A DNA stretch of 64,000 bases from assembly GCA_001447805.1 (NCBI GenBank), contig CP013099.1, positions 992,001-1,056,000 of the forward strand, given 5' to 3'. This DNA is from Candidatus Tenderia electrophaga (GTDB lineage Bacteria > Pseudomonadota > Gammaproteobacteria > Tenderiales > Tenderiaceae). Below the pieces are notes generated by a model, which worked only from the letters and a program-made list of their open reading frames with translations, did not search any database and was not told where the DNA came from. A program made the translations under genes and the position numbers. Of the stretch, positions 41,916 to 51,355 are shown piece after piece. Numbering within the stretch: position 1 is the first letter of the stretch; every line of letters begins with the position of its first letter.

Positions 41916-44720
<2,805 letters not shown>

Positions 44721-44932: not shown

Positions 44933-45181
44933 ATGCGCCTTTCCATCGACGTTACGCCGGAACAGCATCAACGCCTGAAGGCCGCCGCCGCGCTGCAAGG
45001 CAAGTCCATCAAAGAGTATGTGCTGGAGCGCACGCTGCCCGCCCCAGAGGAACAGGCTGCACTCCAGGCGCTGGATGACTGTCTGCAGCCCCGAGTTGAT
45101 GCCGCGAACAACAACAAGCGGTCAGCCAAATCCGTCGATGAAATTTTTGATGAGGTGGAGCAGGAAGGGCGCGGCCGGTAA
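44933..45181 (+). CDS. Ribbon-helix-helix antitoxin
   Basis: An 82-aa protein: MRLSIDVTPEQHQRLKAAAA then LQGKSIKEYVLERTLP make the beta-helix-helix DNA-binding fold, followed by a disordered, charged toxin-neutralising tail (SAKSVDEIFDEVEQEG). It is of the antitoxin type paired with ParE/RelE-fold toxins. Its stop overlaps the next ATG (TAATG), as in TA operons, but the downstream toxin is broken. Iterons upstream suggest autorepression. Confidence 0.8.
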   Translation: MRLSIDVTPEQHQRLKAAAALQGKSIKEYVLERTLPAPEEQAALQALDDCLQPRVDAANNNKRSAKSVDEIFDEVEQEGRGR

Positions 45182-45429
45182 TGCCGTCGTATGAGCTCAC
45201 CGAAGGCGCCGCACAAGACCTGCGTGCCGTGGCGCGCTATGCCTTATTGAAACAAGCAAAAACGAAACAGGTGAGTACGTCGTTCATTCATCAAAGTGCT
45301 CATCATAGCCCGCAAACGACAAGTTGGAATACCTTGGGGCAGGCAGCAGCGCTGGCACGTCGGTGGAAGAGGCCTCCAGCCGGTATTCAAACGTCTGCAC
45401 TTGTCCCAAGTGTTTGGCGGCCTAAGTGA
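45181..45429 (+). pseudogene. Truncated ParE-type toxin fused to unrelated sequence
   Basis: The first 25 or so residues (MPSYELTEGAAQDLRAVARYALLKQ) match the N-terminal helix of ParE-family ribosome-independent toxins. After about 45260 the frame becomes nonsense. In another frame, 45321-45425 reads KLEYLGAGSSAGTSVEEASS... ending CTCPKCLAA, with an in-frame stop just upstream; this looks like the tail of a second decayed gene. The toxin's catalytic C-terminal half is absent, so it is predicted inactive. Confidence 0.65.
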
Positions 45430-45815: not shown

Positions 45816-46235
45816 ATGGAGGATTTCCGCAGAATAAACAATAAATTAATGCCTGCCTGGGCAGTATTGCTGTCATTGTTAATATTGTCCGCTCAAGGCG
45901 TGACTCTGCATATCCACAGTGTCGATCATGACCCTCATCAAAGCCATCACTCGATCGATGATCTGATTGACCACGAACATCCGGGTCAGGCGCATGTTTC
46001 TTTCGATAGCTCCCACCAGGATCATCATGATGAGGTGGCCTCCGAGATTGAGGCATGCCCGGACTGCATATTAAAACAAGTATCCGCCAATCTATTATCC
46101 ATCGCCTTGGTGGCTATCGTGCTGTTCTTGCTCACGCCTGGATTCTATCGAACTAGACTCCTTTATAATCGTGGCAAGGTCAGCCTTCCCCCGCAATTCC
46201 ATATTCTCCCACCCCTCCGCGCACCTCCCCTTTAA
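45816..46235 (+). CDS. His-rich membrane protein of the metal module
   Basis: A 139-aa protein. An N-terminal hydrophobic helix (MPAWAVLLSLLILSAQG) exports a loop with about fourteen His and many Asp (HIHSVDHDPHQSHH, DHEHPGQAH, SSHQDHHDE) and the pair CPDC (near 87-90). A second helix (NLLSIALVAIVLFLLTPG) returns it to the membrane, with a basic C-terminus. The His/Asp/Cys loop is expected to bind Zn, Ni, Co or Cu in the periplasm. No family name is recognised with certainty. The ribosome site before ATG 45816 is weak. Confidence 0.7.
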   Translation: MEDFRRINNKLMPAWAVLLSLLILSAQGVTLHIHSVDHDPHQSHHSIDDLIDHEHPGQAHVSFDSSHQDHHDEVASEIEACPDCILKQVSANLLSIALVAIVLFLLTPGFYRTRLLYNRGKVSLPPQFHILPPLRAPPL

Positions 46236-46263
46236 GGCGATTTTTAGCGAAGCATTGCTGCTC

Positions 46264-46282
46264 GTTCGAATCTGATTCGAAC
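46264..46282. promoter_or_regulatory. Perfect 19-base palindrome upstream of the DUF3240 gene
   Basis: GTTCGAATC T GATTCGAAC is a perfect dyad with 9-base arms. It lies between the His-rich gene and the DUF3240 gene, in a 148-base gap. It resembles an operator for a dimeric regulator; the tRNA T-arm likeness of GGTTCGAATC is considered coincidental because no complementary stem follows. Confidence 0.45.
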
Positions 46283-46383
46283 CGGCACCCGGCAATGCGA
46301 CATAAATTCAGGATCAGTAATGCAGCCGAATTGCGGCGCGTACTGGCATTCCTAAAGATTCCATTCATTGCGGAGGAATACGC

Positions 46384-46692
46384 ATGAAAGTTTTGACACT
46401 TATTGTTCATACCGATGTTCAGCAGCCATTGGCTGACCTGTTACGTACGACCGATCAGGTCCCGGGCTTTACCTTCAGTCATGTCGAGGGCCACGGGATA
46501 GAGGTGGAAAAAGATCCCTTTCTCTCGGCTCACGACAAGGCGGTTGGCTACATCCCGCGCATACGGACCGACATTTTGCTTGAGGACGCTGATGTGGAGG
46601 CCGTGCTGGCGCAGCTGCGTGGCGAAGCGCTCAATCTTGCAGGTCACGCGGTTTATTGGGTGACGGATGCAGCAAGAGGGGGGCGCCTGTGA
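46384..46692 (+). CDS. PII-like DUF3240 protein
   Basis: A 102-aa ferredoxin-like protein of the DUF3240 family: MKVLTLIVHTDVQQPLADLL, a GFTFSHVEGHGIEVE loop, and the terminal HAVYWVTDAARGGRL. DUF3240 proteins are PII-like and usually sit beside RND metal-efflux genes, so a metal-sensing or trafficking role is inferred; no RND genes are present here. GGAGG lies 7 bases before the ATG. The stop overlaps the HupE ATG as TGATG. Confidence 0.8.
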   Translation: MKVLTLIVHTDVQQPLADLLRTTDQVPGFTFSHVEGHGIEVEKDPFLSAHDKAVGYIPRIRTDILLEDADVEAVLAQLRGEALNLAGHAVYWVTDAARGGRL

Positions 46693-47885
46693 TGAGCAAT
46701 AATGCAACCTCATTACATCGGGACAACGGCCCAATGCCGGTAAAACGAAATCTTTTTATCCTCATGGCCGGGCTGGTTCTATACGCCCTGTTATCAAATC
46801 TTGCCTTTGCCCATGGCATGTCTGAGGAGGAAAAACAGGCCATCATCGATGGCGGCAACCTGCAGTACATGTGGCTAGGTGCAACGCACATGCTGTCCGG
46901 CTACGATCATCTGGCGTTTGTGTTTGGGATTATCTTCTTTCTCAGCACCTTCCGGGATATTGCCAAATATGTCACCGCGTTTACGCTGGGGCACAGCGTC
47001 ACCCTGATTTACGCCACGTTTAACGCGATTCAGCTTAACTATTTCCTCATCGATGCGGTTATCGCCCTCAGCGTGTGCTATATCGCCTTCGCCAATATAG
47101 ACGGTTTCCGCAAATACCTGGGCATCACTCCGCCGAATATGATGCTCATGATTGTCGGGCTCGGCCTGATTCATGGTTTTGGTCTGTCTACGCGCTTGCA
47201 GGAGCTACCGTTGAGCGAAGATGGGTTATTGCTGAACATCATTTCGTTCAACGTTGGCATCGAGCTGGGGCAAATCAGCGCACTGTTCCTGATGTTGTTG
47301 CTGATTGCGGCATGGCGGAAAACTCATGGTTTCAAGGCGTTCAGCCTGATCGCAAACTACGCCCTGATTGCCATGGGGGTTTACCTGTTTTTCATGCAAA
47401 TGCATGGGTATGAGCACGCTACCAATGAAGAACTGGCTGCAGCCAAAGCAACCCCGGCGCAGACTGCCGCGTTGGTAGACGGTCTTCAGAACGGGGAATC
47501 TACAGAGTGGAAAGACTCGATTGAGATCTCCATACCCGCCAGAGGCGACAAAGAGTACAAGCTCTTTCTTACCAAAGGCGCAAGGTTTGAGTATTCATGG
47601 CAGACGGATGGTGAGCCGCTGTTTTTTGATTTCCACGGAGAGCCTGCAGGCGACACAACCGGCTATTTCGAAAGTTTTGGCAAGGGTACCGAAAGCCGGT
47701 CTAGCGGCTCTCTAACATCTTCGTTCGAAGGTACCCATGGCTGGTATTGGAAAAACAACACCCTTTCACCTGTCAATATCACGTTAAAAGTCAGCGGTGA
47801 TTATCGCCTCATCGATAAAGACAAGATAATTGAGAAACCGCCGGCAAAACCTAAAACCACACATGAAAGCATTGGCTCACTCTAG
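46692..47885 (+). CDS. HupE/UreJ-type metal permease fused to a soluble C-terminal domain
   Basis: A 397-aa protein. A signal-like helix (NLFILMAGLVLYALL...FAHG) precedes a HupE core with the metal motif ATHMLSGYDHL (His-x5-Asp-His) and FTLGHSVTLIYATF, IHGFGLSTRL and FNVGIELGQISALF across about seven helices (to about residue 245). HupE/UreJ proteins are Ni/Co transporters. Residues about 265-398 form an extra beta-rich domain (WQTDGEPLFFDFHGEP, TGYFESFGKGTE, GTHGWYWKNN), which resembles the domain found elsewhere in separate 'transmembrane anchor' proteins of metal-resistance loci. ATG 46692 follows AGAGGGGGG. A later start (46734) is possible. Confidence 0.82.
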   Translation: MSNNATSLHRDNGPMPVKRNLFILMAGLVLYALLSNLAFAHGMSEEEKQAIIDGGNLQYMWLGATHMLSGYDHLAFVFGIIFFLSTFRDIAKYVTAFTLGHSVTLIYATFNAIQLNYFLIDAVIALSVCYIAFANIDGFRKYLGITPPNMMLMIVGLGLIHGFGLSTRLQELPLSEDGLLLNIISFNVGIELGQISALFLMLLLIAAWRKTHGFKAFSLIANYALIAMGVYLFFMQMHGYEHATNEELAAAKATPAQTAALVDGLQNGESTEWKDSIEISIPARGDKEYKLFLTKGARFEYSWQTDGEPLFFDFHGEPAGDTTGYFESFGKGTESRSSGSLTSSFEGTHGWYWKNNTLSPVNITLKVSGDYRLIDKDKIIEKPPAKPKTTHESIGSL

Positions 47886-47895
47886 GAGAAAATAA

Positions 47896-48030
47896 TTGCA
47901 TAAATTAATTTTGATAATATTTACCTGTATAAGCCTGACGCTGTTATCGGCATGTTCATCCGACCATGGGCATGATCATGATAATGGCCACTCACACGAT
48001 CAAACAACACAACACGATTCAATTAACTAA
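47896..48030 (+). CDS. His-rich mini-lipoprotein (44 aa)
   Basis: TTG start with GGAG seven bases upstream, 10 bases after the HupE stop. Translation MHKLILIIFTCISLTLLSAC carries a lipobox (LLSAC), then SSDHGHDHDNGHSHDQ, with seven His in 21 residues. The predicted mature peptide is a lipid-anchored His/Asp chain of about 25 residues, a plausible metal buffer at the outer membrane or periplasm. It is too short for routine gene finders, but signal, lipobox, ribosome site and operon position all agree. Confidence 0.75.
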   Translation: MHKLILIIFTCISLTLLSACSSDHGHDHDNGHSHDQTTQHDSIN

Positions 48031-48047
48031 ACTCACACGGAGGCTTT

Positions 48048-48398
48048 ATGCGTTACTTGACGACTACCTTGTTTTCAGTGTTTCTGATATTGGCAATCCC
48101 GGTGCACGCAGGCTCAGGACACGATCATGGTCATGGCCATTCGCATGCGCCAGTTACGCAGGAAGAAGCGGAAAAAATCGCAACCAGCAGTGTTGCCGAG
48201 CTGGTTAAGAGAAATAAAGTTGACAGCTCTTGGGGTTCGGTCGCTGTTCATAAGTCAGAAAAAAAGGAATTTGGCGGTCAAATGGAATGGGTTGTGACAT
48301 TCAAGAATAAAAATCTCAGCGACCCGGAAAAACAGACCCTTTACATCTTTCTGTCACTGGAAGGTCAATATCTTGCGGCGAATTACACCGGAAATTAG
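48048..48398 (+). CDS. Exported His-rich protein (DUF6488-like)
   Basis: A 116-aa protein: signal peptide MRYLTTTLFSVFLILAIPVHA, then GSGHDHGHGHSHAPVTQEEA at the mature N-terminus, then a small alpha/beta domain (ATSSVAELVKRNKVDSSWGSV, FGGQMEWVVTFKNKN, QTLYIFLSLEGQYLAANYTG). The domain recalls DUF6488. The His-rich start probably binds a metal. GGAGG precedes the ATG by five bases. Last gene of the metal module. Confidence 0.78.
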   Translation: MRYLTTTLFSVFLILAIPVHAGSGHDHGHGHSHAPVTQEEAEKIATSSVAELVKRNKVDSSWGSVAVHKSEKKEFGGQMEWVVTFKNKNLSDPEKQTLYIFLSLEGQYLAANYTGN

Positions 48399-48470: not shown

Positions 48471-48731
48471 TTCAAATCATCGCCGCGGCTTGCGGTAGCC
48501 GTAGATCATCAAAAAAATGCTTATGGACAAAATATGCTGCTCGATGCCATGGCGCGCGCGCTGCGGATATCCGATGAGGCGGGCTTGGTCGGCCTGTTTG
48601 TCGATGCCAAGGATGATGTTGTAGCGGGGTATTATATGAAGTTCGGATTCGTCCCCATTGAAAACAATCCATTGTTGCTCTATTTGGCGATGGTCTCTAT
48701 TCGCCAGGCATTTGAAAATCAGGGTCAATAA
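48471..48731 (+). pseudogene. 5'-truncated GNAT acetyltransferase
   Basis: Open from a stop at 48468; reads PRLAVAVDHQKNAYGQNMLL, then ARALRISDEAGLVGLFVDAK and YYMKFGFVPIENNPLLLYLAM. This is the second half of a GNAT domain of the tRNA-acetylating toxin type (RLAVD, acetyl-CoA loop, VDAKD, YxxFGF). The N-terminal half is missing, and the acetyl-CoA pyrophosphate loop is altered (NAYGQN for QGxGxG). A partner DUF1778-type antitoxin is not present. Predicted non-functional relic. Confidence 0.7.
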
Positions 48732-48790: not shown

Positions 48791-51355
48791 TTACGCAGCT
48801 TGGATCGGAATCACCTTCTCCGCCACTTTCTGATACTCCTCGATCTCATTGAAGTTGAGATAGCGATAGATATCCGCGGCCATGGGGTCGATCGTTTTCA
48901 CCGCTTTCATGTATTCGGCCACGGTGGGGATCTTGCCCATCTGCGCGCATACCGCGGCGAGTTCGGCGGAGCCGAGGTAGACGTTGGCGTCTTTGCCCAA
49001 ACGGTTGGGAAAGTTGCGCGTCGAGGTGGACATGACGGTGGCGCCGTCGGCCACGCGCGCCTGATTCCCCATGCACAAGGAACAGCCGGGCATTTCGGTA
49101 CGGGCATTGGCCTTGCCGAAGATGGCGTAGTAGCCCTCTTCGATGAGTTGGTGCTCATCCATCTTAGTGGGTGGGGCGATCCACAACCGAGTCGGTACGC
49201 TGCCGCCGTAGGTCTCCAGCACTTTGCCGGCGGCGCGGAAGTGGCCGATGTTGGTCATGCAGCTGCCGATGAAGACTTCGTCGATCTTGGTGTTTTCCAC
49301 CTCCGACAGCAGCTTTACGTCGTCTGGATCGTTGGGGCAGGCGACGATGGGCTCCTTGATCTCGTTGAGATCGATTTCGATCACCTCGGCGTATTCGGCA
49401 TCGGCGTCCGCTTCCAACAGTTCCGGGTTGGCGAGCCAGTTTTCCATGGCCTCGATGCGGCGGCTCAGGGTGCGTTTGTCTTCGTAGCCGTTGGCGATCA
49501 TCCACTTCAACAGGGTGATGTTGGACTTGAGGTATTCGATGATTGGCGCTTGGCCCAGCTTGACGGTGCAGCCGTTGGCGGAGCGTTCGGCGGAGGCATC
49601 GGAGAGCTCGAAGGCCTGTTCCACTTTCAGATGCTCCAGCCCCTCGATCTCCAGCACGCGACCGGAGAAGACGTTTTGCTTGCCCGCCTTCTCCACCGTC
49701 AGCAGCCCTTTTTGGATGGCGGCGTAGGGGATGGCGTTGACCAGGTCACGCAGGGTGACACCGGGTTGCATCTCGCCCTTGAAGCGCACCAGCACCGATT
49801 CGGGCATGTCCTGCGGCATCACGCCCAGGGCGGCGGCGAAGGCCACCAGGCCGGAGCCGGCCGGGAATGAGATACCGAGCGGGAAGCGGGTGTGGGAGTC
49901 GCCGCCGGTGCCCACGGTGTCGGGCAGGATCATGCGGTTCAACCAGCTGTGGATGACGCCGTCACCGGGGCGCAGGCTGACCCCGCCGCGGTTGTGGATG
50001 AACTCGGGCAGTTCATGCTGCAATTTGACGTCCACCGGTTTAGGGTAGGCGGCGGTGTGACAGAAGGACTGCATCACCAGGTCGGCGGAGAAGCCCAAAC
50101 AGGCCAGCTCCTTGAGCTCGTCGCGGGTCATGGCGCCGGTGGTGTCCTGCGAGCCGACGGTGGTCATGCGCGGTTCGCAGTAGGTGCCGGGGCGCACGCC
50201 CGCCACACCGCAGGCCTTGCCGACCATCTTCTGCGCCAGGGTGTAGCCCTTGCCGGTGTCGACGGGGGCTTCGGGGCGACGGAACAGGGTGCTCGGTTCC
50301 AGGCCCAGGGCCTCGCGGGTCTTGTCGGTGAGTGAGCGGCCGATGATCAGTGGAATGCGGCCGCCGGCGCGCACTTCGTCAGGCATGGTGGACGGCTTGA
50401 GGTCGAAGCTTGAGATCACTTCGCCGGCCTCGTTTTCGATCACGCCTTCATAGGGTTTGATGGTGATGACATCGCCCATGTTGAGTTGGGTGACGTCGCA
50501 CTCGATGGGCAGACAGCCGGAATCCTCGGCAGTGTTGAAGAAGATCGGGGCGATCTTGCCGCCCAGCACCACGCCGCCCTGGCGCTTGTTGGGCACGTAG
50601 GGAATGTCACGGCCCATGTGCCAGAGCACGGAGTTGATGGCCGATTTACGCGAGGAGCCGGTGCCCACCACGTCGCCGACGTAGGCCAGCGGGTGGCCTT
50701 TCTGTTTCAGCGCCTCGATCTTGGCCAGCGCATCGGGCATTTTGGCACCCAACATGGCCTTGGCATGCAGCGGGATATCGGGACGGCTCCAGGCCTCGGA
50801 GGCGGGGGAGAGATCGTCGGTGTTGGTCTCACCGTCCACCTTGAAGACAGTGACCTTGATCGCGGCGGCCAGCTCGGGCTTGTTGGTGAACCACTCGGCC
50901 TCGGCCCAGGCGTCGGTGATCTGTTTGGCGTGTTCGTTGCCTGCCTTGGCCTTATCGATGACATCATGAAAGGCATCAAACATGAGCTGGGTCGTGGACA
51001 GGGATGCCGCGGCGATAGGCGCCAACTCGGCATCGTCCAGCAGCTCGATCTGGGGCTGGATGTTGTAGCCGCCCAGCATAGTGCCGAGTAATTCGGCGGC
51101 CTGCTTTCTGTCGATTAATGGGCTTTGTGCTTCGCCCTTGGTGATGGCGGCCAGAAAGCCTGCTTTGACATAGGCGGCCTGGTCCACGCCGGCGGGTACG
51201 CGCTGGCTGAACAACTGCATCAGTTCGGCCGCTTCAGCCGCCGGCGGATTTTTTATAAGTTCAATCAGCTCAGCGGTCTGCTGGGCATCCAGGGCCAATG
51301 GTGGCAGGCCCTCGGCGGCGCGTTGTTCAACGTGTTGACGATAGGCTGTAAGCAC
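48791..51355 (-). CDS. acnB: Bifunctional aconitate hydratase 2 / 2-methylisocitrate dehydratase
   Basis: The main TCA-cycle aconitase (854 aa) of the AcnB branch, with N-terminal HEAT-like domain (about 1-160), swivelling domain, then catalytic domains. Cluster ligands are in [19 protein letters not shown] (near 699) and [12 protein letters not shown] (near 757 and 760). Also [21 protein letters not shown] and [14 protein letters not shown]. The start is GTG 51355 with GAGG seven bases upstream. AcnB can bind mRNA when its cluster is lost, so iron may affect it. It has its own terminator. Confidence 0.97.

Follow-up and report, generated by a model that had tools for sequence, protein, structure and literature searches.

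A conserved metal-transport operon with a predicted nascent-peptide leader in Candidatus Tenderia electrophaga

Introduction

Leader peptides that arrest the ribosome are known as regulators of copper operons, and we compare them here with the first gene of a five-gene operon from Candidatus Tenderia electrophaga. The operon, which encodes a short leader, a DUF3240 protein, a HupE permease, a mini-lipoprotein and a DUF6488 protein, lies on contig CP013099.1 in a stretch of 64,000 nucleotides, referred to as the window, whose numbering is used for all coordinates without a prefix.

Among the closest described leaders is CruR of Bordetella pertussis, the product of a DUF2946 upstream open reading frame. 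It arrests at a C-terminal RAPP motif in vitro (PMC12992588), and copper control requires this motif; copper is sensed via a CxxC motif 45 residues, give or take one or two, before RAPP, and the downstream gene encodes a TonB receptor (PMC9426467). CutF, according to the sections of PMC9973294 that deal with its action, works in cis via its own C-terminus. The passages of the same paper on CutF-like leaders also describe His-only members, in clusters 14 and 17 of a sequence similarity network, whose neighbours are HupE/UreJ genes, and hence the pairing of such a leader with HupE is not new. Distinctive here are the low detectability of the leader family, the module of DUF3240 and DUF6488, a slot for an efflux pump, and the presence of several sister leaders in one genome.

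Judging from sequence, we consider it reasonably probable that the locus is a metal-responsive transport operon under a nascent-peptide sensor, with DUF6488 docked on the tail of the HupE permease, and that it forms the pump-less half of a heavy-metal system of the resistance-nodulation-division (RND) type.

Results

Conservation and composition of the operon

The five genes do form a metal-transport operon, and it is widely conserved. Scanning 84,980 species genomes for HupE gave 80 loci, spread over Pseudomonadota, Nitrospirota, Nitrospinota, Acidobacteriota and Thermodesulfobacteriota, and most of these relatives show the same families in the same order around HupE, a gene set far from chance. 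Three arrangements occur: a long form, in which leader, outer membrane factor (OMF), membrane fusion protein (MFP), RND pump, DUF3240, HupE, an optional lipoprotein and DUF6488 follow each other; the compact form seen in the window; and a form reduced to leader, HupE, optional lipoprotein and DUF6488. A second sample of 143 genomes of the class was drawn separately, a few of them overlapping with the first set. There, DUF6488 lies within about 1.2 kb of HupE_UreJ_2 in 8 of the 12 genomes that have it, DUF3240 adjoins HupE in 5 of 34, and, of the inspected genomes outside the first set, three (L101, L103, L104) have HupE preceded by a leader ending in RAPP or RGPP. The first-pass annotation of the window had proposed a metal-handling module, with absence of the neighbourhood from other genomes among its refuting conditions; its conservation in several bacterial phyla and the recurring family order bear the proposal out. 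Our literature search found no paper that pairs DUF3240 with HupE and none that names DUF6488. The operon also occurs in two metagenome bins titled Klebsiella pneumoniae (L047, L054), names which look wrong for the sequences.

In the window, the operon comprises the following features:

45816-46235, plus strand: putative RAPP leader gene, CruR/CutF-like and DUF2946-like, 139 residues, with N-terminal export segment, His-rich loop, second hydrophobic segment and C-terminal RAPP
45909-46028, plus strand: His-rich leader loop, residues 32-71, with H32, H34 and H60 unchanged across 33 aligned leaders
46218-46229, plus strand: RAPP codons CGC GCA CCT CCC, one residue before the stop (motif function from PMC9426467 and PMC12992588)
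46236-46383, plus strand: gap of 148 nucleotides between leader and DUF3240; place of the OMF-MFP-RND genes in RND-type relatives
46384-46692, plus strand: DUF3240 gene, PII-like, 102 residues, sole copy in the genome
46692-47885, plus strand: gene of the HupE_UreJ_2 permease, 397 residues, which has the HX5DH motif and is extended at its C-terminus; start overlapping the stop of DUF3240
46812-46814, plus strand: codon of HupE His41, in AFA-HGMSE; predicted N-terminal His after putative signal-peptide cleavage, conservation at least 90%
47514-47798, plus strand: GOLD-like beta sandwich of HupE, residues 275-369, presumably on the periplasmic side
47862-47873, plus strand: C-terminal tail motif HESI of HupE
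47896-48030, plus strand: mini-lipoprotein gene, His-rich, 44 residues, with TTG start, LSAC lipobox and C-terminus QHDSIN
48013-48024, plus strand: HDSI, the tail motif at the C-terminus of the lipoprotein; counterpart of the HupE tail
48048-48398, plus strand: gene of the exported DUF6488 protein, 116 residues, with His-rich N-terminus and compact alpha/beta domain

The stop of DUF3240 and the start of HupE overlap in TGATG (46690-46694), and good Shine-Dalgarno sites precede genes 2, 4 and 5, with none clear ahead of gene 1. Five genes on one strand, His clusters and TGATG coupling had already been noted at first pass and are all real; the strong ribosome sites noted with them hold for genes 2, 4 and 5 and were overstated for gene 1. 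The PII-like nature of DUF3240 likewise stands: the protein scores 48.2 bits against PF11582 (cut-off 21) and passes the P-II cut-off, too. HupE reaches 170.8 bits against PF13795 (HupE_UreJ_2; cut-off 24.5) and the gene 5 product 84.6 bits against PF20098 (DUF6488; cut-off 27), while the mini-lipoprotein matches no meaningful Pfam family. Searches with the window proteins found DUF3240 and HupE in single copy in the genome. A search of Rfam gave nothing relevant, and a promoter scan nothing above chance.

The leader gene

Gene 1 had first been taken for a His/Asp-rich membrane protein that handles metal. Of the homologous leaders, i.e., those found ahead of DUF3240, OMF or HupE, each of the 48 has RAPP at a distance of one to six residues from its C-terminus, encoded by varied synonymous codons. 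Four further loci without a clustered leader have an open reading frame (ORF) ending in RAPP (L069, L080, L081) or RGPP (L082) shortly upstream, and an RGPP end is also present in L103. Over 33 aligned leaders the mean column identity is 26%, and H32, H34, H60 and P-RAPP are the sole invariants. In all 33 type-a leaders, 21-31 residues separate the end of the second hydrophobic segment from RAPP, and the last His of the loop mostly lies 60-66 residues ahead of the motif; type-b leaders have a weaker second segment. As the ribosome exit tunnel spans about 30 residues, such spacing would mean that, with the ribosome on RAPP, the membrane segment is located at the exit and the His loop has already emerged. 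These RAPP ends and their near-fixed spacing, viewed beside the described leaders (PMC9426467, PMC9973294), replace the metal-handling protein by an arrest-peptide leader: gene 1 very probably encodes no metal carrier but a regulatory peptide that senses metal and stalls its own synthesis.

CutF-like proteins are delimited operationally by a length below 150 residues, a signal peptide, PP in the last 15 residues and a same-strand gene within 1000 nucleotides (PMC9973294). The window leader has 139 residues, RAPP at 135-138, a gap of 148 nucleotides and an N-terminal hydrophobic segment, judged as an export segment by hydropathy rather than by a signal-peptide predictor. Its C-terminal RAPP is also what marks the RAPP arrest peptides, which end in RAPP or RGPP. 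With CruR it shares the first position in a metal operon, export, the RAPP end and the long gap to gene 2. In contrast to CruR, whose sensor is the CxxC motif, conservation here falls on the His loop; a CPDC is found only in the window leader, 50 residues before RAPP, and in a few relatives, the spacing being about 50 instead of 45, and the genes downstream encode HupE, DUF3240 and DUF6488 instead of a TonB receptor. The leader probably belongs to the group of clusters 14 and 17, to which we liken it by description and not member by member: these are likewise short, exported and His-rich, with PP near the C-terminus and HupE/UreJ next to them. The passages describing these clusters mention neither DUF3240 nor DUF6488, and they do not speak of a shared tail or of a slot for an optional RND pump. 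What speaks against our explanation is the weak profile match, as the leader scores 23.3 bits against PF11162 (DUF2946), below the gathering cut-off of 23.7, and PF11162 is detected in just 3 of 33 leaders even at E 0.1. We therefore call the leader DUF2946-like and not a member.

A fourth RAPP leader in the genome, of the CxxC type (CQIC), is located at L115:913-1221 (C1:1117212-1117520); downstream of it lie a possible beta-barrel gene and the gene of an ABC-3 metal permease.

Mode of control

Two routes from a stalled leader to the downstream genes, Rho-dependent termination as in CruR and unmasking of the ribosome site as in CutF, are equally possible. A stem-loop that shields the ribosome site of gene 2, the mechanism of CutF, is suggested by the window but not significant across 12 loci. 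The intergenic region of the window folds more stably than shuffled sequences (z -2.5), and in most compact relatives the DUF3240 ribosome site becomes more accessible once the leader end is masked. As a conserved feature, shielding of the Shine-Dalgarno site by the leader end found no significant support, which counts against our explanation: synonymous recoding at 12 loci gave a Fisher p of 0.14, and partner swapping gave no support either, with little power because the Shine-Dalgarno site is nearly constant. That the leader works by Rho-dependent termination and not by unmasking has, in our view, close to an even chance. The non-significant shielding fits this explanation, as does the leader 3' end (46180-46235), which is strongly C-rich and G-poor, and the 148-nucleotide gap resembles the 162-nucleotide gap of cruR (PMC9426467); the C-richness, however, stems in part from proline codons.

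At 46369-46383, directly before the start codon, a tiny TGCG/CGCA hairpin holds the DUF3240 ribosome site in its loop, as in several relatives. The stem reads TGTG/CACA in L020, a compensatory change.

The pump slot

In 16 of 77 loci, an OMF-MFP-RND operon lies between the leader and DUF3240/HupE. These 16 relatives resemble the CzcCBA/CnrCBA-type operons in that the three genes share an operon; the window operon differs from that type in that the pump is missing from it and matching pumps are encoded elsewhere in the genome. It contains no RND genes, and the 148-nucleotide gap holds no pump remnant. On the HupE tree, RND presence changes at least nine times on well-supported branches. The compact locus L005 has kept the last 60 RND residues between leader and DUF3240 (82% identity, E 2e-23), and its sister L008 has the RND gene. 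L032 has an internally broken pump, and in L057 the pump is divergently placed.

The genome encodes 14 full-length ACR_tran proteins. Two of its RND proteins (C1:736534-739644 and C2:94741-97815) are 72-86% identical to those of about ten HupE-linked loci, and both operons start with a RAPP leader of their own (L095 14395-14850, minus strand; L096 3494-3940). Together with these two pump operons and their RAPP leaders, the window operon makes up a set of three sister units, and it is not a pump-free pathway. A pump of the same genome (L084) carries a DFG..VDGA motif, which is typical of divalent-cation pumps. Less favourable to this relation are about seven HupE-linked RND proteins of another subclass, only about 43% identical to the pumps of this genome. 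The original notion of a route without any RND pump thus holds only locally, and gives way in view of the fixed slot in relatives, the remnant in L005 and the two matching pumps in the genome.

A family of small lipoproteins with no convincing Pfam match was observed just after RND genes or between DUF3240 and HupE:

L095:8020-8475, minus strand: recurring small lipoprotein
L096:10291-10812: recurring small lipoprotein
L102:5313-5762: recurring small lipoprotein

HupE and DUF3240

H66, D72 and H73 of HupE, which form the HX5DH motif, are invariant in the aligned relatives. The extra domain reported at first pass is real and present at the C-terminus in all of them. It is modelled as a GOLD-like beta sandwich with a predicted local distance difference test (pLDDT) score of about 90-95 over most of its length, and the model matches p24 GOLD domains with a TM-score of 0.7-0.8 by target length; a PDB sequence search with HupE gave no match. 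With six membrane helices, HupE would have both termini on the periplasmic side. G038 encodes the GOLD-like domain and the permease in two neighbouring genes (L116:817-1386 and 1399-2145), next to a DUF6488-like gene.

The HX5DH motif is presumably common to this protein and the HupE nickel permease of Rhizobium leguminosarum, which belongs to the same permease superfamily. The window protein differs from the latter: it falls into PF13795 and below the PF04955 cut-off, has the extra domain and the tail, and stands outside a hydrogenase operon. HupE proteins with an N-terminal His are described in PMC12537917, and with the Anglerase-HupE/UreJ-2 fusions of that paper the window protein shares a HupE_UreJ_2 permease, a non-cytoplasmic extra domain and the conserved N-terminal His. 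Anglerase domains, however, are N-terminal and bear the His, whereas here the permease begins right after the signal segment, the His directly precedes it, and the extra domain is C-terminal and GOLD-like. DUF3240 matches PII proteins over its own length; their ATP-binding B-loop was not seen in the DUF3240 alignment, as judged by eye.

The HupE tail, the mini-lipoprotein and DUF6488

HupE ends in a linker followed by H-[DE]-[ST]-[IL]; in its strict form this pattern is found in 45 of 77 HupE proteins and in 3 of 983 other ORFs, and most mini-lipoproteins share the ending. When a slightly looser pattern is compared with the presence of a neighbouring DUF6488 gene, 50 loci have both and 15 neither, 6 have DUF6488 only and 2 the tail only (Fisher 4e-9). 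Paired losses of tail and DUF6488, counted by eye on the HupE tree, occurred in about 9-10 separate places. The two loci with the tail only are L013 and L080, and in L080 DUF6488 is encoded on another contig of the same genome. A natural HupE-DUF6488 fusion (G102, L122:1503-2591) has no tail, and short HupE proteins without the GOLD domain keep it where DUF6488 follows. In L098, DUF6488 stands directly after an RND pump, with no HupE. A fold search of the PDB with DUF6488 gave no significant match, only weak PepSY-like ones such as YpeB.

As the tail tracks DUF6488, recurs on the mini-lipoprotein and is missing in the fusion, DUF6488 is probably the periplasmic partner of HupE. The link between permease, His lipoprotein and exported protein suggested at first pass is supported by this association and by the fusion. 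More tentatively, DUF6488 may recognise HupE by its H-D-S/T-I/L tail, of which the lipoprotein would be a free, lipid-anchored copy; this would amount to a metal relay based on tails, expressed under the control of a metal-tuned, His-sensing arrest leader of the type shared with the heavy-metal RND pumps of the same cell. Some observations tell against docking on the tail. L013 has a tail without DUF6488 nearby and G056 a tail without DUF6488; moreover, tail and DUF6488 are adjacent in the DNA and can be lost together in a single deletion, and related loci do not count as independent cases.

The association might thus reflect linked deletion of neighbouring DNA without any docking, DUF6488 being an independent periplasmic metal chelator, an explanation that we hold possible though not probable. 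It would agree with the distance of only about 12-20 nucleotides between the tail codons and the next gene at many loci, with the HupE frame of L032, which ends in residues like the C-terminus of DUF6488, as a deletion would leave them, and with the occurrence of DUF6488 without HupE. Deletion fits poorly with GOLD domains that end intact in tail-less cases, with L080, which retains the tail with DUF6488 in trans, with the same tail on a different gene, that of the lipoprotein, and with a natural fusion lacking the tail.

Metal and direction of transport

We favour a response to metal excess, on account of the association with heavy-metal RND genes, the DUF6488 gene after an RND pump in L098, and nickel induction in Sphingobium ba1, where a HupE/UreJ gene beside a Cnr-type RND pump is the most nickel-induced gene (PMC5557971). 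The converse, which we regard as rather unlikely, is a nickel or cobalt uptake operon in which HupE imports Ni for a nickel enzyme, lipoprotein and DUF6488 pass the metal on, and the leader turns on expression under metal scarcity. Uptake is kept in play by a [NiFe]-hydrogenase encoded in the genome: genes for the large and small subunits lie about 23 kb downstream of HupE (L114:1859-3852; C1:1061858-1063851), the large subunit scoring 89.6 bits against PF00374 and carrying CGIC and DPCISC motifs. Furthermore, Rhizobium HupE is a nickel importer according to the work cited in PMC12537917, metal uptake is proposed there for HupE/UreJ-2 proteins with metal-capturing domains, and CruR-type leaders can turn on at metal scarcity (PMC9426467). 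Uptake is, however, at odds with the repeated tie of the operon to heavy-metal RND efflux genes and not to hydrogenase or urease genes, with a search of the genome that found no urease alpha subunit, and with the nickel induction in Sphingobium.

Flanking genes

Two genes of aconitase type, identified by eye and both on the minus strand, flank the operon (41916-44720 and 48791-51355). Between the first of these and the leader, at 44933-45429, lies a ParD-type antitoxin gene followed by an apparently disrupted ORF with a ParE-like start. A short ORF at 48534-48731 resembles, by eye, the C-terminal part of a GNAT acetyltransferase and is probably a remnant.

Discussion

In the explanation we prefer, a metal-responsive operon under a nascent-peptide sensor, the His-rich loop of the leader would enter the periplasm during synthesis and export, and the ribosome would stall at RAPP just after the second membrane segment has emerged from the exit tunnel. 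Metal bound to the His loop would alter the duration of the stall and with it the expression of DUF3240, HupE, lipoprotein and DUF6488, and metal excess would most likely switch the operon on. HupE would act as the inner-membrane permease, DUF6488 would dock in the periplasm on its H-D-S/T-I/L tail, and the mini-lipoprotein would present the same tail once more, anchored to lipid. As a whole, the operon would form the pump-less half of a heavy-metal RND system, the pump being present in cis in relatives and, in this genome, as two matching pumps in trans, each with a sister leader. That gene 1 is instead an ordinary His-rich membrane protein of the zinc chaperone type, acting as a protein and with RAPP a by-product of family membership, is very unlikely: it is exported, His-rich, of protein length and has three conserved His, but apart from these His only P-RAPP is invariant, at the very C-terminus and at a near-fixed distance from the second membrane segment, RAPP is avoided in bacterial proteomes (PMC12992588), and the related CutF and CruR are regulators of downstream genes (PMC9973294, PMC9426467).

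With this leader, arrest-peptide control, known for copper from CruR and CutF, would reach a family of His-loop leaders, most of which escape the current Pfam profile. For three domains, DUF3240, DUF6488 and the DUF2946-like leader, a testable function is offered, and the rule linking tail and DUF6488, together with the natural fusion, opens an anonymous periplasmic family to direct tests. The pump slot, finally, illustrates how a metal system may gain or lose an efflux pump while one type of sensor stays in place.

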